Shown here one piece after another: positions 60 through 16,576 of a stretch of DNA of 26,353 bases. How positions within the stretch are numbered: position 1 is the first letter of the stretch; each line of letters starts with the position of its first letter. Both the position numbers and the translations under genes were made by a program. This DNA comes from a virus. Under the pieces are notes generated by a model, which saw only the letters and a program-made list of their open reading frames with translations, did not search any database and was not told the DNA's origin. The stretch is taken from positions 1 through 26,353 of IMG/VR virus record IMGVR_UViG_3300036398_002055. The stretch is one strand, 5' to 3'.

Positions 60-95
60 AAAAAATCCCTTTTACATATTTAGCGTAAAAGGGAT
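60..95 (-). terminator. Intrinsic terminator of the DnaJ-PDF-ClpA operon
   Basis: There is a perfect 11-bp inverted repeat (65-75 pairing with 85-95) with a 9-nt loop. In the minus direction it is followed by a run of U (complement of A at 60-64). It begins 17 nt after the stop codon of the 209-aa gene, as expected for the end of the operon. Confidence 0.85.
77..84 (-). promoter_or_regulatory. Late-promoter-like octamer in the terminator loop
   Basis: On the minus strand the loop of the hairpin reads GCTAAATA, one base away from the GATAAATA octamers found before three other minus-strand genes here. It ends 17 nt before the ATG at 59, a spacing suited to late transcription of that gene. This rests on motif similarity only. 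Confidence 0.4.
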
Positions 96-111
96 CTTAA
101 TAAACTGCTTT

Positions 112-741
112 TTAGCCTTGTACTACAGTCTCTACTTTAGTGATTGTACGTCCTAGAAACATCTTTACCATAGTAAGAACTTTCTCGTCTTTGACATAAA
201 AGAACCCTCCTCCTGGGTTACTATTTCTACTTAGATCACGTTTAGCTCGCTTAGGCATGCGTATTTTAGGGTTATTTTCACACCACTGTACAAAGTTTAA
301 ATGGCATTGTACGGAACTTCCTAGGCTAACTTTAAAACCAAAATCTAGATTCTTAACTAGAATCGTACCTTTAGCTAGTTTGTTTTCATTGTCAGGATCG
401 GGTATTTCTACATATTTCACTCTATTTTTACAGTGCTTTACAACTGTTTCTAAATCTTTATCGTTATTAAGATACAAGCTGACAAAAGGAGTTTCTACTC
501 TTACTCCCCAATCTTCGAGATTCTTTAATATTTCTGCTAGTTTTTTGGCGTGAGTTTTATCACTTGGTGAGGCTTTTCTAGCATAATAATAATCATCGTT
601 ATCGTGATGAGCTAGAATTTGTTCGGCACTGCTACCCCTAAACCACCCAGCTACTCCAGAAGTAAACACAATTTTGTATTTGTATTTGTTCTGGAATAAT
701 TTTGTACTGTGTTGTACTTTATAAGGTTTCAGGAATTTCAT
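112..741 (-). CDS. Conserved-looking phage protein of unknown function, last gene of the chaperone/protease operon
   Basis: This encodes 209 aa that I do not recognise as a named family. It is a soluble, basic protein with no signal peptide or membrane segment. The N-terminus is rich in Lys and Tyr (KYKYKIVF), the middle (about residues 90-140) looks like mixed alpha/beta, and there is a glycine-rich turn (NPGGGFFYV) near residue 175. The start overlaps the 3' end of the ClpA-like gene by 23 nt, so the two are probably translationally coupled. An intrinsic terminator follows 17 nt after the stop. Its place at the end of a DnaJ-deformylase-ClpA operon allows the guess that it is an accessory or adaptor factor, but nothing in the sequence proves that. 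Confidence 0.8.
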   Translation of the reverse strand: MKFLKPYKVQHSTKLFQNKYKYKIVFTSGVAGWFRGSSAEQILAHHDNDDYYYARKASPSDKTHAKKLAEILKNLEDWGVRVETPFVSLYLNNDKDLETVVKHCKNRVKYVEIPDPDNENKLAKGTILVKNLDFGFKVSLGSSVQCHLNFVQWCENNPKIRMPKRAKRDLSRNSNPGGGFFYVKDEKVLTMVKMFLGRTITKVETVVQG

Positions 742-2968
742 TTTCTATAACTTTAGAAGATTTAAGTTTAGGTGTTAAAACTAATTTATCGTCTTGACAA
801 GAAATTTGTAAAATACCTCCTTGTTGTAATTCTCCAAAAAGTATCATTTTAGCCAAGGGCCTTTTAATTTCTTTGTCAATAACACGCTGCAATGGACGAG
901 CACCCATTTTCTTATCAAAGCCTTTACTTACTAACCATTCAATTGCTGGCTGATTAATTTTAAGTTTGACGCCTTTTTCTCTAACTTGTATTTTGACTTC
1001 ATCCATAAATTTACCAACAATCTTAACCATTGTTTCTTTAGCTAACTTATTAAACGTAACAATTCCGTCTAATCTGTTTCTAAATTCAGGTGCAAAGAAT
1101 TTTTTAAGTTCTTTATCTTCATAAGTTTTTTCTTGGTCGCCGAATCCGATAGTATTTTTTTCTGCGTCCTGAGCACCCGCATTTGTAGTAAGAATTAGTA
1201 TAATATTTCTACAATCTGCTTTCTTACCGTTACTTCCTGTGACAAAACCGTTATCCATAATCTGTAACAGTATAGTGCTTACATCTGGATGGCTCTTTTC
1301 GATTTCATCAAGTAATAAAACACAATTAGGATTTTCTTGAATTTGTGTAATAAGAAGTCCAGCATTTTCTTCAAATCCAACATATCCAGGAGGACTTCCA
1401 ATCAGTTTACTTACACTGTGCTTTTCTTGATATTCACTCATATCAAATCGAATAAGTTTAACTCCTAACGACTTTGCCAATGCTTTTGCAGTTTCAGTTT
1501 TACCACATCCAGTAGGACCCATAAAGACAAAACTGCCTACAGGTTTATTTTCGGATTTTAATCCTGCTCTGCTTACAAGAATTTTATCTACGACTTCAGA
1601 AACAGCATGAGTCTGACCAAACACTTCGTTGCTAATTTGATTTTCTAAATTAGCAAGATTTTGTGATTCTGCTTCTGCTATGGTTTCAGCAGGCATGTTT
1701 ATCATTTTGCTTAGTTCAAATTCGATTTCATTCGCAGTGATAATTCTGTTATCTGCTATTTTTAGATTAAAACGACTTGCTGCACAATCAATTAAATCGA
1801 TAGCTTTATCGGGTAATTTTTTATCTGCTTGATATTTTACACTTAATTTAATTGCTGCTTGAATAGCATCGTCTTTAATTTTTACATTATGATATTGTTC
1901 ATAATATTTTTTAACACCTTTTAGAATTTGTGCAGTCATTTCGGATGTAGGTTCGTCAACACTAATACGTTGGAAACGACGCATTAATGCACGATCCTTT
2001 TCAAAATATTTTCTATACTCTTCCCATGTAGTACTGGCGATAACTTTAATATTGCCTTTACTTAGTGCAGGTTTCATCATATTACTCAAATCGTTGGCAC
2101 TATTGTTAGCACTACCTGCACCACTGATCATATGGGCTTCATCGATAAAAAGAATTGTTTTACCTTTCTTTTCTAGATTTTTAAGCACAGCTTTGAAACG
2201 TTCTTCAAAATCTCCTCTGTACTTACTACCTGCCAACATAGCACTGATATCGAGATTATAAACTGTATAAGGTTTTAGGAAATCTGGTACAGCACCTTTT
2301 ACAATATTATATGCTAATCCTTCTGCAATAGCAGTTTTACCTACACCCGGATCACCTACAAGGATAACATTACATTTACTACGTCTGCCCAATGCCAAGG
2401 CTACATTTTCTAATTCGTCGATGCGACCTATTACTGGATCGACTTTGCCTTTTTTTACAGCTTCATTTAAATTAGTTGTAAATGCTTTCAAAGCTCTCTC
2501 GTCTTGTAAATTTCTAGGTTCTTCTTCTTCGTGTTCAGTAACTTCTGAATTCAAGTATTCTGCAAATTTTTCTTTATCTACACCTGCTTGCTGAATATAG
2601 TAATTGGCAAAGCTACGTTTTTCGCTCATCATAGACAAAAATACATCAGTCGGTTCGATTCTCTGTCTGCCATTAAAAAGCACTTGTGTAAAGGCTTTAT
2701 TCAACACACGCTCGACTGCTTGTGTTTTTCTTGGCTTTATAACATTTTCGGCAACAATATCATTTAATTTTGTTTTTAAATAATGTTCCAGACTTTTTCT
2801 TAAAAAGTCGCTATCCGCACCAGAACCGTTTAGACAATTTACAAAGCTTTCTTCTAACAGCATTGCAAACAACAAATGCTCGATAGTTAGATATTCGTGT
2901 TTAAGTTTTTGTGCAACTTCGATTGATTTTTCAAAAACTAATTGAAGTTCATCGCTTGGTTCTACCAT
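719..2968 (-). CDS. clpA: ClpA-type AAA+ protein unfoldase (Hsp100)
   Basis: This encodes 749 aa, close to the size of bacterial ClpA. Residues 1-140 resemble the Clp N-domain (repeat around LTIEHLLFAML). The first AAA+ module has Walker A GDPGVGKT (205-212), Walker B ILFIDEA (272-278) and an arginine-finger region (RR at 330-331). The second has Walker A GPTGCGKT (484-491), Walker B LLLDEIEKSHPDV (551-563) and PEFRNRLD (627-634). There is no ClpB/ClpC middle domain between the modules, so it is ClpA-like. An IGF tripeptide (607-609) lies where ClpA/ClpX/ClpC carry the ClpP-docking loop. No ClpP gene is present, so it probably uses host ClpP to unfold and feed selected proteins for degradation. 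AGAGGA lies 6 nt before the ATG, which overlaps the deformylase 3' end by 20 nt. Confidence 0.93.
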   Translation of the reverse strand: MVEPSDELQLVFEKSIEVAQKLKHEYLTIEHLLFAMLLEESFVNCLNGSGADSDFLRKSLEHYLKTKLNDIVAENVIKPRKTQAVERVLNKAFTQVLFNGRQRIEPTDVFLSMMSEKRSFANYYIQQAGVDKEKFAEYLNSEVTEHEEEEPRNLQDERALKAFTTNLNEAVKKGKVDPVIGRIDELENVALALGRRSKCNVILVGDPGVGKTAIAEGLAYNIVKGAVPDFLKPYTVYNLDISAMLAGSKYRGDFEERFKAVLKNLEKKGKTILFIDEAHMISGAGSANNSANDLSNMMKPALSKGNIKVIASTTWEEYRKYFEKDRALMRRFQRISVDEPTSEMTAQILKGVKKYYEQYHNVKIKDDAIQAAIKLSVKYQADKKLPDKAIDLIDCAASRFNLKIADNRIITANEIEFELSKMINMPAETIAEAESQNLANLENQISNEVFGQTHAVSEVVDKILVSRAGLKSENKPVGSFVFMGPTGCGKTETAKALAKSLGVKLIRFDMSEYQEKHSVSKLIGSPPGYVGFEENAGLLITQIQENPNCVLLLDEIEKSHPDVSTILLQIMDNGFVTGSNGKKADCRNIILILTTNAGAQDAEKNTIGFGDQEKTYEDKELKKFFAPEFRNRLDGIVTFNKLAKETMVKIVGKFMDEVKIQVREKGVKLKINQPAIEWLVSKGFDKKMGARPLQRVIDKEIKRPLAKMILFGELQQGGILQISCQDDKLVLTPKLKSSKVIENEIPETL

Positions 2969-3464
2969 TTAATTTCCTCTGTTTTTTAATAGCCATCTGT
3001 AGTTTAAGTTTACTTACATGTTCGGTAAAACATACTCCGTTTAAATGATCTAGCTCATGTAAGAAGCATCTTGCATCTATTCCATCAAGTCTTATTATAT
3101 GCTTATTATTATTTCTGTCAAGAAATTCAACAATCACGTGTTCCGGTCTTTTCACCATTAAAAACATATTCGGAAAGCTGAGACAGCCTTCTTCTCCTAA
3201 TTCAGAGTCGGGACTAACTGTGATTACTTTTGGATTGAATAATGCAAATGGAGTAAAGACTTCTTTTAGATTTTGAGTTTGCATTGTAAAGACTCTTGCG
3301 TTCACTCCAACTTGATTTGCAGCTAATCCAATACCATTGCTCTCTATCATAATTTTAACCATTTCTTCTTCGAGAGCAAGTGGGTCTATAATTGGATTAT
3401 CGAAGTCAAAATCAGGTAATGCTGTATCTAAAATATTATCAGGATATGTTATTAATTTCAGCAT
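2949..3464 (-). CDS. def: Peptide deformylase
   Basis: This encodes 171 aa, the usual length for peptide deformylase, which removes the N-formyl group from new polypeptides. All three signature motifs are intact: GIGLAANQ (44-51), EGCLS (92-96) supplying the metal-binding Cys94, and HELDH (136-140) supplying the two metal-binding His and catalytic Glu137. It should therefore be an active metalloenzyme. It overlaps the J-protein gene by 26 nt upstream and the ClpA-like gene by 20 nt downstream, so it is embedded in the operon. Phage deformylases are known in marine T4-like phages, where a role in rapid processing of phage or photosystem proteins has been proposed. Here the neighbours suggest protein turnover and folding; deformylation could also alter formyl-Met degradation signals (inference). 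Confidence 0.95.
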   Translation of the reverse strand: MLKLITYPDNILDTALPDFDFDNPIIDPLALEEEMVKIMIESNGIGLAANQVGVNARVFTMQTQNLKEVFTPFALFNPKVITVSPDSELGEEGCLSFPNMFLMVKRPEHVIVEFLDRNNNKHIIRLDGIDARCFLHELDHLNGVCFTEHVSKLKLQMAIKKQRKLNGRTKR

Positions 3465-4263
3465 GAATCTCTTTTAATTTTTGAATTGTACTTTCGTTAG
3501 TAATTGCAGGTATAGAAATTTTTACAATAATAATTAATGCTCCAAGTCTACCAAAGTTACTATCTCTAAATCCTCTTCCAGAACTGGCGAACTCTTGATT
3601 ATGCTGAATCCCTGGACGTATTTTAAGAGGCATAATATTTCCATCTAAGCATTTTATCTCTTTAGTACAACCAATCATAGCTTCTAACCAGCTTATTTCT
3701 ATCTCTTTACATAAATCATTATCGCGTCTGTACCATTCAGGATCTGCTTCCACCATCACAGTAACATTAAGATTACCAGGAGGCATATTAGGTATAGTGT
3801 CATCACCTAAACCGGCAAAACGTAAAACTTGACCAGATTGGACTCCTGGAGGCACTTCTATAACTACTGTTCTTTTACGTCCAGAAGGTGTATTATACTG
3901 AGCTTCTACTTGTGTGCCTAAAAAACTTTGCTTAAAAGAAATCGATATCCTTAAACCGAGATCTCGATTTTTTCTTTTTTGTTGTGCAAATCCAGGGCCA
4001 AAATGGAAACTAAACATGTCTCCAAAATTTGGAAAGCCATGTCCGCCCATGCCACTAAATGCATTAAAGCCATTTAGCTCTGCATCGTATTGTGATTTTT
4101 TTTGGGGATCGCTTAGAGTGTCGTAAGCTTGTGATATTTCTTGAAACTTCTTGTTATCGCCGCCTCTGTCAGGATGATGTTTCATAGCCAATTTTTTATA
4201 GGCTTTTTTGATATCATCCTGACTGGCTTGTTCGCTTACTCCGAGTATGTCATAATAGTTCAT
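3439..4263 (-). CDS. dnaJ: DnaJ-like (type II, CbpA-like) J-domain co-chaperone
   Basis: This encodes 274 aa. Residues 1-65 form a full J domain with the HPD tripeptide (30-32) needed to stimulate the ATPase of DnaK. A Gly/Phe-rich linker follows (about 68-95, e.g. GMGGHGFPNFGDMF), then substrate-binding beta domains (about 100-270). The CxxCxGxG zinc-finger repeats of classical DnaJ are missing, so it is a type II J-protein like CbpA. No DnaK is seen in this window, so the partner is presumably host DnaK. It is the first gene of the operon. A consensus promoter lies so close that the predicted transcript starts at or near the ATG, and no Shine-Dalgarno sequence is visible, which points to a leaderless message. 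Confidence 0.93.
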   Translation of the reverse strand: MNYYDILGVSEQASQDDIKKAYKKLAMKHHPDRGGDNKKFQEISQAYDTLSDPQKKSQYDAELNGFNAFSGMGGHGFPNFGDMFSFHFGPGFAQQKRKNRDLGLRISISFKQSFLGTQVEAQYNTPSGRKRTVVIEVPPGVQSGQVLRFAGLGDDTIPNMPPGNLNVTVMVEADPEWYRRDNDLCKEIEISWLEAMIGCTKEIKCLDGNIMPLKIRPGIQHNQEFASSGRGFRDSNFGRLGALIIIVKISIPAITNESTIQKLKEIHAEINNIS

Positions 4264-4270
4264 ACTTATA

Positions 4271-4299
4271 ATTATACAAGGAGTTATTCCTTATGTCAA
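4271..4299 (-). promoter_or_regulatory. Consensus sigma70-type promoter of the DnaJ-PDF-ClpA operon
   Basis: Minus strand: -35 TTGACA (4294-4299), exactly 17 nt spacer, -10 TATAAT (4271-4276), a 12/12 match to the bacterial housekeeping consensus. The -35 box contains the stop codon of the upstream 167-aa gene. The -10 ends 7 nt before the ATG, so transcription should begin at about the start codon. The spacer holds a small inverted repeat (AAGGA/TCCTT, 5-nt loop) that might bind a regulator. Confidence 0.85.
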
Positions 4300-7140: not shown

Positions 7141-7148
7141 TATTTATC
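7141..7148 (-). promoter_or_regulatory. T4-type late promoter (GATAAATA)
   Basis: The minus strand reads GATAAATA, 25 nt before the ATG of the 181-aa gene, exactly the spacing seen at 5070-5077. AACTCAA lies 4 nt upstream of it, again as at 5070-5077. A small palindrome (TAGAA/TTCTA) sits in the predicted leader. Confidence 0.75.
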
Positions 7149-10110: not shown

Positions 10111-10482
10111 TTATTGATTAACAAAAGGAACAAGATTGGGCGGTTGCCAACCTTCGGGTTTAAGTACTTTGCCATCTTCACGCTTACGAACCTTTCCGGT
10201 TTCTGCATCAATTTTGGCAAAATTTGTACGCATTACTTCATTCCATGCACCCTCTGCATCGAAACCACCACTGTGTATTGCTCCAATTGTAACAACTAGT
10301 ATATCGATAAGTGCATCTAATTGTTCAACTCGATCATTATTTGCCAGTGCTGTTTTGAACTCGTCGTTAAATTCTTCATCAATTAAATCACAATATAGTT
10401 TATACTGTGATTGATTATAATCTTCGACTGTTTGTTCACACGCTTGCATGAATGTTTTTTGATCTTTAAATGGGTTGGTCAT
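10111..10482 (-). CDS. MazG-like nucleotide pyrophosphohydrolase
   Basis: This encodes 123 aa. Motifs of the all-alpha NTP-PPase (MazG/HisE) superfamily are visible: acidic EEFNDE (36-41) and ExxDxxxD as EQLDALID (53-60), which bind Mg2+, followed by a helix LVVTIGAIH. The C-terminal block (DAETGKVRKREDGKVLKPEG, then WQPPNL) resembles the form found in many marine T4-like phages. The enzyme would hydrolyse nucleoside triphosphates or alarmone-like nucleotides; the physiological substrate of phage versions is debated. The ATG overlaps the upstream GroES-like stop codon by 4 nt, so it is co-translated with the co-chaperonin gene. A tRNA/clamp-loader promoter follows. Confidence 0.88.
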   Translation of the reverse strand: MTNPFKDQKTFMQACEQTVEDYNQSQYKLYCDLIDEEFNDEFKTALANNDRVEQLDALIDILVVTIGAIHSGGFDAEGAWNEVMRTNFAKIDAETGKVRKREDGKVLKPEGWQPPNLVPFVNQ

Positions 10483-10814
10483 GATGGAACGTAAACGCCT
10501 TCTGGTTTTTCATCTGATACTATGAGTATGTCTTTATTATCTACTCTTCTGATAGTAATTTCTTCTTCACCGTCTTGAACTCTGATCCCTCTAGTCCAAC
10601 GACCGTGAGCTACACAAATCCATTCACCTACAGAAACATCTTTTTGTTCAGGGCCAACTGCCCAAACTCTGCCCCAACGTGCTTTAATACCTTCGACTTT
10701 TCCATTTAAATTTTGAATGATAATTCCTGCCGCAGTTTTTTCTTCACCGAATTCCATATCTGCAACAAGAACATTATCTCTAATAGGTAATATTCTGCCT
10801 TTGATTACCTGCAT
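10479..10814 (-). CDS. GroES/gp31-like co-chaperonin
   Basis: This encodes 111 aa. It aligns by eye with GroES: RDNVLV near the N-terminus, a mobile loop EEKTAAGIIIQN (24-35) with hydrophobic triplet III (31-33) equivalent to the GroEL-contacting IVL of E. coli GroES, then GRVWAVGPEQKDVSVGEW like GroES G-x-V-x-A-V-G and V-G-D, and a C-terminal DILIV strand. It probably caps host GroEL to fold phage proteins, as gp31 does for the T4 capsid protein. It has a perfect AAGGAG before the ATG and overlaps the MazG-like gene by 4 nt. No GroEL gene is visible here. Confidence 0.8.
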   Translation of the reverse strand: MQVIKGRILPIRDNVLVADMEFGEEKTAAGIIIQNLNGKVEGIKARWGRVWAVGPEQKDVSVGEWICVAHGRWTRGIRVQDGEEEITIRRVDNKDILIVSDEKPEGVYVPS

Positions 10815-11075: not shown

Positions 11076-11582
11076 TTATCTTAAAAACTCTTTGTAGTCT
11101 AAATTATATTTGACACTGTCTATTTTATGTACTCCAATCAAATATAACACATAACTGGCTACACTTGACCCTCGTCCTACTCCCCAAACAATGTTTTTTT
11201 CCCTACAAATATCTACGAAATATTTTAACCATCGTAGTAAATCTAGCATATTTCTTTCTCGAAATTCTACAAGTTCGTCTATTAATCGCTGATAATTTTC
11301 TTTCGGGCACTGATCGACCAAAAACCCTTCTACGTCCATATTTTTGTAATCATCTGGCATGAACCATTGTTTTTGATTTGCTAAATCAAAATCATTTATA
11401 GTTTGATCATAATTTAGATTTTCAGTGGTGGTTAAACTATTGTTTAATAAACTATTAAATTGTTTTATATCTACGGTATTTTCGACTATTAGATCTGTTA
11501 GCGTTTCTAGATCATTTTCATAAATCAAATTGAAAATATCTTGCTGATCAAAAATTGATTGTCCGTACTTGTCTAATCTCAT
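11076..11582 (-). CDS. DnaE-like fragment (bacterial Pol III alpha palm motif) lacking catalytic Asp residues
   Basis: This encodes 168 aa. The C-terminal 60 residues (about 108-168) resemble the part of DNA polymerase III alpha that includes the GRGS motif: VGRGSSVASYVLYLIGV (135-151) followed by DSVKYNLDYKEFLR. The protein stops where true DnaE continues into the PDxDxD motif with the catalytic aspartates, so it cannot be a polymerase by itself. The first 100 residues are acidic and unlike DnaE. The promoter before it leaves no leader, and no Shine-Dalgarno sequence is seen. Possible roles are interaction with host Pol III or with phage replication proteins; both are guesses. It does not look freshly broken, since no continuation of DnaE is found in the downstream DNA. 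Confidence 0.75.
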   Translation of the reverse strand: MRLDKYGQSIFDQQDIFNLIYENDLETLTDLIVENTVDIKQFNSLLNNSLTTTENLNYDQTINDFDLANQKQWFMPDDYKNMDVEGFLVDQCPKENYQRLIDELVEFRERNMLDLLRWLKYFVDICREKNIVWGVGRGSSVASYVLYLIGVHKIDSVKYNLDYKEFLR

Positions 11583-14995: not shown

Positions 14996-16576
14996 TTAAA
15001 TCCTAATTCTTATATCACCGCTTATTTGAACTCCGCGTATTCTCAAAGAAGGTGGTACAGGAGTTGTAGAATAAGGCCAGTATAAAAAACTTTGTGTACC
15101 ATTAGTAATACTTCTATTATTAGTATAGTCGTCGTCTAATCCTGTTGAATATATTCTATCATTACCTGCTACGATTTGTTCAGAAGTTAAAAAATTCTTC
15201 ACTAAACTTGGTGTGACACTAGGATATATTCCGAGATATAGAGCCGCCACACCAGCTACTTGGGGACTGGCCATACTTGTACCTGAAATATTCATTTGCT
15301 TAAAAGCAGGATTAAGATGATAATCAGATGCTCCATAATCGTTAGTGTTACTAGATGCACTCATGATATTCGACCCAGGTGCCATAATTGATACCCCAGG
15401 ACCATGAGAACTAAATGTAGATTTTTGATCAAGATTAGCACTGTATACTGTGCTGTCTATACTACCAACGATTATAGCACTTGTGCTATATGGACTAGAT
15501 CCTCTATGATAATATGTATTTCCTACACCTATTTTGTTATAATAGTTGTCGTAATCTAGCCCTCCTGGTAAATCGATTTTATCAAAGGAATTACCTGCTG
15601 ATATGCATACTATGACACCTGCAGAAATTAATTCGTCTAAATCTGCATCTACACTACCAACTCTTACATTATGACGAAATACTCCTGATATATTCACACC
15701 AATCATACCATAGCTTGTTTCTCTTAAATTGCCTGCCCATGGAGTTCCTCTATAATTACCTCCGTCGATATTAGAATAGGAAGTGCCATACCCCCAGCTC
15801 ATATTAACTACAGTCGGTCGTTTGTAACCAGTTGTAGGATCAATAGGTTTGTTTATATGCCATAGTTTGATAACGTCAAAACAATCAGTGACACTGATTC
15901 CAGTCCCGGAATCTCCGCTACCCTCCAATCCTGATACTTTAACGGAAAAAATTCTAGAATTTTTAGCCCAACCATAGTTTTTACCAGCTGCAATACCTGC
16001 ACAATGTGTACCGTGTCCATCGAAATCTCTATAATGATTAGCACTTTGAGTGCCGGGCAGTCCACTAGCAGTATACCAGTTTATTTGTTGAACTCTGCTG
16101 TTACCTAAAGCATCTGTAAATTCTGGGTGATCTACTTGTAAGCCACTGTCTTGAATTACAATATCTACTCCAGTGCCATCGTATAGATAATTGTATCCTC
16201 CGCTGACAGTAGTTGATGTTCCATAAGGATTGTTATAATCTATACAGCGTCTTAACCCCCAATTTATAAATGAACCAGAACCACTGGTAGTTTTGGTAAA
16301 GTCTCCAACTTGTGTAATATTTTTAACTATCTCTATGTCGTCGCGTTGTTGCGGAGGTATTTCAACAGAATAAATTCTAGAATCGGATCTTAAAATTTCT
16401 GCCTCTTCATTTGTGAGTGCATAATGACAACTTCTTAAACTGCCTGGTCGTTCGTTAACTATATCTACTCTTCTATTAGGTACGAAACCATCTGTAGAAG
16501 AAACATTTTCCATTTCGTTCCAAAATTGGTCATAGTTAACATCTTTATTTAAAACAACAATATATTCTCTTTCCAT
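14996..16576 (-). CDS. Subtilisin-like serine protease (S8 family) in the tail gene cluster
   Basis: This encodes 526 aa. The catalytic triad is complete and in subtilase order: Asp143 (IQDSGLQVDHPEF), His188 (DGHGTHCAGIAAG, 186-198) and Ser434 (SGTSMASPQVAGVA, 431-444), with oxyanion Asn329 in SAGNS. Residues 1-80 resemble an I9-type propeptide (EYIVVL at the start, YSVEIPP near 69-75), so it may be an autoprocessed zymogen. No signal peptide is seen, so it acts in the infected cell or as part of the virion. Its place between tail-fibre and structural genes with near-zero spacing suggests a virion protein that matures fibres or degrades host-surface protein. The last 60 residues after the protease domain are unassigned. 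Confidence 0.92.
   Translation of the reverse strand: MEREYIVVLNKDVNYDQFWNEMENVSSTDGFVPNRRVDIVNERPGSLRSCHYALTNEEAEILRSDSRIYSVEIPPQQRDDIEIVKNITQVGDFTKTTSGSGSFINWGLRRCIDYNNPYGTSTTVSGGYNYLYDGTGVDIVIQDSGLQVDHPEFTDALGNSRVQQINWYTASGLPGTQSANHYRDFDGHGTHCAGIAAGKNYGWAKNSRIFSVKVSGLEGSGDSGTGISVTDCFDVIKLWHINKPIDPTTGYKRPTVVNMSWGYGTSYSNIDGGNYRGTPWAGNLRETSYGMIGVNISGVFRHNVRVGSVDADLDELISAGVIVCISAGNSFDKIDLPGGLDYDNYYNKIGVGNTYYHRGSSPYSTSAIIVGSIDSTVYSANLDQKSTFSSHGPGVSIMAPGSNIMSASSNTNDYGASDYHLNPAFKQMNISGTSMASPQVAGVAALYLGIYPSVTPSLVKNFLTSEQIVAGNDRIYSTGLDDDYTNNRSITNGTQSFLYWPYSTTPVPPSLRIRGVQISGDIRIRI

Follow-up and report, generated by a model that had tools for sequence, protein, structure and literature searches.

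The window analyzed here, i.e., the whole virus record of 26,353 bases, which is a partial fragment without a ClpP gene, carries four overlapping ORFs on the minus strand (positions 4263-112), namely dnaJ, pdf, clpA, and a gene for a 209-aa protein that we term X209. We regard this group, with a probability of roughly 0.6, as an early-expressed, phage-encoded protein quality-control unit centered on the ClpA-X209 pair. What the sequences show is how the genes are ordered, the residues for catalysis and docking, two conserved promoters, and a strict linkage between ClpA and X209. A first-pass annotation of the same DNA had claimed a four-gene overlapping group, and all four ORFs were indeed present, with overlaps of 26 nt (dnaJ/pdf), 20 nt (pdf/clpA), and 23 nt (clpA/X209). 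The operon is surrounded by virion and spanin genes (Rz and Rz1). The features are listed below.

4271-4299, minus strand: P1, predicted sigma70 promoter, 12/12 match (TTGACA-N17-TATAAT)
3439-4263, minus strand: dnaJ, J-protein of 274 aa (J domain with HPD, short G/F region, DnaJ_C)
2949-3464, minus strand: pdf, peptide deformylase (PDF) of 171 aa (Pep_deformylase; all three motifs)
3094-3121, minus strand: P2, predicted sigma70 promoter in pdf, 12/12 match (TTGACA-N16-TATAAT)
719-2968, minus strand: clpA, ClpA-type AAA+ unfoldase of 749 aa (N domain, D1, D2)
1142-1150, minus strand: codons of the IGF tripeptide (ClpA residues 607-609) in the putative ClpP-docking loop
112-741, minus strand: X209, 209 aa, new family with two predicted ferredoxin-like domains
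62-98, minus strand: predicted intrinsic terminator 3' of X209 (15-bp stem, U-run)
77-84, minus strand: GCTAAATA, located in the loop of the terminator and differing from GATAAATA at one position

Three other genes of the window, all on the minus strand, are recorded here as observations: a GroES/gp31-like co-chaperonin (10479-10814; Cpn10, PHROG 931), which is another chaperone gene; a 168-aa protein (11076-11582) that matches only the start of a DNA polymerase III alpha domain and is too short for a polymerase; and a subtilisin-like protease (14996-16576; Peptidase_S8, 526 aa) lying among large putative structural or fiber genes.

Every key residue that had been claimed for the enzymes (HPD, the PDF motifs, and the ClpA Walker sets) was found. 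In the Pfam search, the J-protein displayed a J domain, with HPD at residue 30, and DnaJ_C. As no CxxCxGxG zinc-finger repeat was found in its sequence, the protein is assigned to type B (CbpA-like) and the classical type A DnaJ was rejected. The deformylase bears GIGLAANQ at residue 44, Cys94 in EGCLS, and HELDH at residue 136, corresponding to the GxGxAAxQ, EGCLS, and HExxH motifs of the family, and scored 129.5 against the cut-off of 103.95 for TIGR00079.

The third protein comprises Clp_N, AAA, AAA_lid_9, AAA_2, and ClpB_D2-small in Pfam terms, i.e., a Clp N domain and two AAA+ modules, with Walker A motifs (GDPGVGKT and GPTGCGKT), Walker B motifs (FIDEAH and LLLDEIEK), and pore loops (KYRG and GYVG). 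Its best match in PDB was Escherichia coli ClpA, which aligned end to end (residues 6-738). The two proteins are alike in the N domain, the two AAA+ rings, the pore loops, the ClpP-docking loop, and the absence of an M domain. On the other hand, the docking loop has IGL in E. coli ClpA but IGF in the phage protein, and clpA is linked to clpS in E. coli but to X209 in the phage. A ClpP-docking tripeptide of the IGL/IGF kind is thus present in the window, and all relatives with a detected loop pattern have IGF (one sequence was unmatched by the pattern), albeit with varying flanks. AAA_2 comes immediately after AAA_lid_9 (residues 342-443), beginning at residue 475, with no M domain inserted in the D1 lid, and a ClpB/Hsp104 disaggregase (bi-chaperone) reading was dropped for the absence of the coiled-coil M domain. 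Because the ClpB middle domain is missing and IGF is invariant, we consider that the phage protein is probably a ClpP-docking unfoldase. TIGR02639, the NCBIfam ClpA equivalog, was the best-scoring family, but the score (890.6 bits) was below the cut-off (993.15), and therefore we call the protein ClpA-type, not a ClpA ortholog; this score counts against the quality-control reading. The top ClpA matches, named "Acinetobacter phage MD-2021a," were set aside for the bacterial chromosome genes, including clpS, around them. One of these records (CAKLQF020000008.1) carries argC, rpiA, and clpS-clpA and looks like a bacterial chromosome, and another of the same name (CAKLQH020000043.1) gave an identical clpA match.

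The IMG/VR scan seeded with ClpA yielded 80 loci at 74-82% identity, in all of which X209 lay directly downstream of ClpA; DnaJ was upstream wherever the contig was long enough. When an X209 profile served as the seed instead, ClpA was adjacent in 71 of the 71 loci with room and DnaJ was present in 55 of 55, and the X209-ClpA adjacency held among relatives down to approximately 30% X209 identity. Conserved synteny had been put forward in the first-pass annotation as a check on the group, and both scans returned it almost without exception. The position of pdf was more relaxed: dnaJ and clpA flanked the gene in 53 of the 87 distinct loci among the IMG/VR relatives, and no PDF was detected throughout four larger PDF-less contigs, all of them partial. 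From this count and the PDF-less loci, pdf is an optional member and DnaJ-ClpA-X209 is the fixed core. At two PDF-less loci (L010:9408-9998 and L013), an unrelated ORF of approximately 197 aa, without a Pfam match, occupied the position of pdf.

X209 showed no significant match in Pfam, PHROGs, or NCBIfam, and nothing better than an E-value of 0.12 among PDB sequences. Its structure was predicted with confidence (pLDDT of 93.3) and comprised two ferredoxin-like domains (residues approximately 17-114 and 129-209). The fold matches in PDB were generic ferredoxin-like proteins (best Z of 5.9), with no known Clp adaptor among the matches listed, although a resemblance to one may still exist, and the ClpS domain (PF02617) was not detected by Pfam. 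On its predicted structure, X209 represents a new, probably not ClpS-like family with two ferredoxin-like domains. That none of the fold matches names a function counts against the quality-control reading as far as the predicted structure goes. The nearest structures were those of uncharacterized proteins of uncultured phages and of gp014 of Agrobacterium phage Atu_ph07; the latter, identified by its length of 208 aa and a weak profile hit, is encoded far from clpA of that phage. No X209 was found in cultured phages by tblastn, nor in Sinorhizobium phage Phosso, Atu_ph07, or PBECO4 by the profile search. K23, F34, R35, Y90, W153, and Y182 are invariant, but the median identity to the window protein was 37% for X209 vs. 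77% for ClpA; ClpA changes most slowly of the genes at the locus, and X209 belongs to those that change fastest.

The 12/12 consensus sigma70 promoter claimed before dnaJ was confirmed at 4299-4271 (P1). Its spacer is 17 bp and its -10 element ends 7 nt before the ATG of dnaJ, so that a leaderless dnaJ mRNA is predicted. No 12/12 site occurred in 30 simulated sequences matching the window in length and composition. Among the distinct relatives, 68 of 78 had a site of at least 11/12 within 150 nt upstream of dnaJ, and the distance from the -10 element to the ATG was 5-9 nt in 32 of the 67 that were scored. Sites of at least 11/12 within the same distance were absent upstream of PDF, X209, Rz1, and the virion genes, and occurred upstream of Rz in 2 of 59 and upstream of ClpA in 13 of 88.

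A different motif marks the neighboring genes. GATAAATA was almost strictly strand-specific: the 2.2 Mb of loci, which are partly redundant, contained it 268 times on the coding strand vs. three times on the other strand, and contained the T4-type TATAAATA twice on each strand. GATAAATA is a variant of TATAAATA, the T4 late promoter, and looks like the late promoter of this lineage, replacing TATAAATA of T4. The motif precedes virion and neighboring genes (positions 7148 and 5077 of the window, minus strand) and lies within 100 nt after X209 in 81 of 92 relatives; it was never found within 100 nt before dnaJ, PDF, ClpA, or X209. The intrinsic terminator claimed 3' of the fourth gene proved to be a strong fold (approximately 98-62, minus strand; -20.1 kcal/mol, z of -5.5). 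Its loop contains GCTAAATA, and at L139, L144, L149, L158, and other loci, a GATAAATA-type motif lies in the terminator after X209, so that a putative late-type promoter for the next gene would reside inside the terminator. As P1 precedes dnaJ and the late-type motif lies in this terminator, the unit appears to begin at an early-type promoter and to end where a late-type one starts, from which we infer the timing of expression. Since dnaJ is preceded by a conserved sigma70 promoter while the nearby virion genes and the gene after X209 are preceded by GATAAATA, the operon is likely an early, separate transcription unit.

The first-pass annotation placed all four genes under one promoter. This part of the claim does not stand, as pdf harbors a second conserved sigma70 site that was absent from that annotation. 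P2 (12/12, 16-bp spacer) lies 153 nt upstream of clpA within the coding sequence of pdf, and 54 of the 55 relatives that carry pdf have it at the identical place with an identical spacer. Conservation at such a position might simply be an accident of the protein sequence, and P2 is indeed located in a well conserved stretch of PDF. Nevertheless, the constraint falls on silent positions and persists despite amino acid changes. Asp116 is encoded by GAC in all 53 non-redundant pdf sequences, while GAC accounts for 36% of the Asp codons in clpA; Ile123 is always encoded by ATA, which accounts for 7.5% of Ile codons (ATA counts at P2 of 45/45 and 47/48). Codon 115 is NTT throughout, across Leu, Phe, Val, and Ile, and codon 122 ends in T throughout, across Cys, Arg, Val, and others. 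In contrast, an invariant Asp a few codons downstream of P2 is encoded by GAT in 47 and GAC in 7 sequences. These counts are from related sequences and not from independent events, but the contrast with the neighboring codons is plain. Furthermore, the site is retained in L040 and L042, in which the gap between dnaJ and clpA still encodes a remnant of PDF (LDK..SYIIEFEGI) containing the promoter; as read from the sequences, these loci lost pdf but retained its putative promoter. We therefore regard the accident reading as highly improbable. With the consensus, the spacing, and a conservation beyond the need of coding, P2 qualifies as a predicted sigma70 promoter. In the PDF-less loci with a dnaJ-clpA gap of 37-97 nt, a sigma70 site lay between the two genes (at least 11/12 in 14 of 18), and none of the 16 PDF-less loci with the two genes 10-21 nt apart had a site of at least 10/12. 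Because P2 is conserved at silent positions and was kept after the loss of pdf, clpA-X209 very likely forms a separate transcription unit nested in the larger operon. One stretch of DNA would thus serve as both coding sequence and predicted promoter, which is visible from codon choice alone. Our literature search, which covered open-licence papers, returned no pertinent account of phage promoters located within terminators or coding sequences.

The operon itself encodes neither ClpP nor DnaK, and it is not "self-contained" as had been proposed: ClpP, DnaK, and ClpS are located elsewhere in the genomes of the two largest relatives, which are near full length (G001, 364 kb; G014, 383 kb) and carry each of the three. 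ClpP was found in 11 of the 27 relatives searched, most of which were partial contigs, and we infer from these relatives that the phage of the window has a ClpP as well; that the inference has to be drawn from relatives counts against the quality-control reading. DnaK of G001 was closest to those of freshwater Burkholderiales (Polynucleobacter and Limnohabitans; best hits of approximately 69-75% identity in a search by short exact patterns), which suggests this group, as a lead, for the host. In G001, the genes for DnaK, Hsp20, ClpS, heme oxygenase, and a fatty-acid-desaturase-like protein are consecutive (L113:8172-12209), forming a second stress cluster.

A DnaJ-ClpA core extends beyond the lineage of the window. 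In Atu_ph07 (490 kb), dnaJ is directly followed by clpA as in the window, and ClpP and ClpS are encoded away from this pair; the phage differs in having neither PDF nor X209 beside ClpA (41% ClpA identity), no consensus sigma70 promoter before dnaJ, and only a weaker 10/12 site before clpA. Its Clp-like proteins and DnaJ were already published as a gene list (PMC6102473), and the DnaJ-ClpA grouping was partly published in a survey of jumbo phages (PMC7824862). Phosso (469 kb, PV764938) shares the order dnaJ-pdf-clpA with the window and has ClpP and ClpS elsewhere in its genome, but X209 is absent and no sigma70 consensus sites were found upstream. ClpA of the RaK2/PBECO4-type jumbo phages belongs to PHROG 4871, as does that of the window, although clpA of PBECO4 is a lone gene surrounded by virion genes, with no dnaJ, pdf, or X209 beside it. 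A virion protein encoded at 6631-5849 of the window is common to Atu_ph07, Phosso, and the RaK2-type phages, and lies a few kb from dnaJ-clpA in Atu_ph07. Moraphages, large aquatic phages with predicted Bacteroidota hosts, have ClpA as a core gene, DnaJ commonly, and DnaK in some (PMC12619734); their DnaK is flavobacterial, in contrast to the Burkholderiales affinity of DnaK in the relative of the window, and PDF goes unmentioned for them (PMC12619734). The fixed unit, the X209 partner, and the promoter within pdf were not found described; single phage genes of such kinds are known. What is new here is the strict ClpA-X209 pair, the optional PDF, the predicted promoter dual-coded in pdf, and ClpP, ClpS, and DnaK elsewhere in the genome. 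Phage genes for Clp and J-proteins tend to be catalogued as dispersed auxiliaries, but here they are kept together as one fixed unit throughout a large and diverse freshwater lineage related to giant phages.

In the quality-control reading, host RNA polymerase would read P1 (dnaJ-pdf-clpA-X209) and P2 (clpA-X209) soon after infection. The ClpA ring would dock by its IGF loop on ClpP, either the phage-encoded one or that of the host, and feed unfolded substrates to it, while the J-protein would recruit DnaK (that of the phage in the largest relatives, otherwise that of the host) to hold or refold new phage proteins, and PDF would remove the formyl group from these proteins when synthesis outruns the host enzyme. 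X209 would act with ClpA, most likely by selecting substrates or regulating the ring; facing varying targets would fit its fast change beside the slow ClpA. The linkage and P2 would be explained most simply if X209 were a partner of ClpA. The idea that X209 is an adaptor in the manner of ClpS has been weakened, because near-full-length relatives carry a true ClpS too and X209 is thus unlikely to be a mere replacement for it; an adaptor role of any kind is a guess. We can put forward only tentatively the fuller proposal that X209 founds a novel group of Clp adaptors or regulators, built of two ferredoxin-like domains, which pairs with ClpA, is expressed early from the promoter dual-coded in pdf, and directs a fully phage-encoded ClpAP protease at chosen targets. 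The testable question raised is whether a jumbo phage deploys its own ClpAP protease early in infection, with X209 choosing the substrates.

Several other readings deserve weighing. A strict linkage can reflect co-transcription instead of physical partnership, and X209 may have another job, such as nucleic-acid binding via its ferredoxin-like (RRM-like) domains, since domains of this kind are common in RNA- and DNA-binding proteins and the structural relative gp014 lies far from clpA in Atu_ph07. We find this somewhat doubtful, as ClpA was adjacent at every X209 locus with room even at low X209 identity, and P2 would make clpA-X209 a unit of its own. The possibility of co-transcription alone, and the cultured phages Atu_ph07 and Phosso, which keep DnaJ-ClpA without a neighboring X209, nonetheless count against the quality-control reading.

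The purpose of the unit can also be read differently. If early ClpA-X209 destroyed particular host proteins bound by X209, the operon would be a weapon for host takeover or counter-defense, as the early-type promoters, the own conserved promoter of clpA-X209, and the disparity in rate between X209 and ClpA might suggest; however, a fast rate of change is by itself no proof of an arms race, and the near-full-length relatives have ClpS for general adaptor work, which leaves this reading unlikely. Slightly less likely still, in our judgment, is a module for folding and assembly, in which ClpA unfolds or remodels proteins without ClpP, and DnaJ/DnaK, PDF, and the GroES-like protein help very large jumbo virion proteins mature. 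The location amid virion and spanin genes and the GroES/gp31-like gene at 10479-10814 are compatible with such a module, and it agrees with published proposals for phage ClpA and DnaJ, which favor assembly (PMC7824862). It leaves unexplained the invariant IGF loop and the phage ClpP and ClpS in the largest relatives, and ClpA has no ClpB-type M domain for a bi-chaperone with DnaK; the predicted sigma70 promoters, moreover, separate the unit from the late virion genes.

Apart from the above, a terminator-like hairpin encloses the dnaJ promoter at L045:8622-8690 and at approximately 32 further distinct sites in the relatives, with the layout TTGACAGGCTCC...TATAAT...GGAGCCTTTTTT-ACGACT-ATG; the window itself has no such hairpin. 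The structure was found at 33 of 105 distinct sigma70-like sites; when the flanks were shuffled, the count was 0 of 163. MAFFT misaligned the hairpin arms, so that RNAalifold failed on the alignment, but the stem displayed compensatory changes when placed in register by hand. Such a hairpin would end upstream transcripts and begin new ones at one spot.
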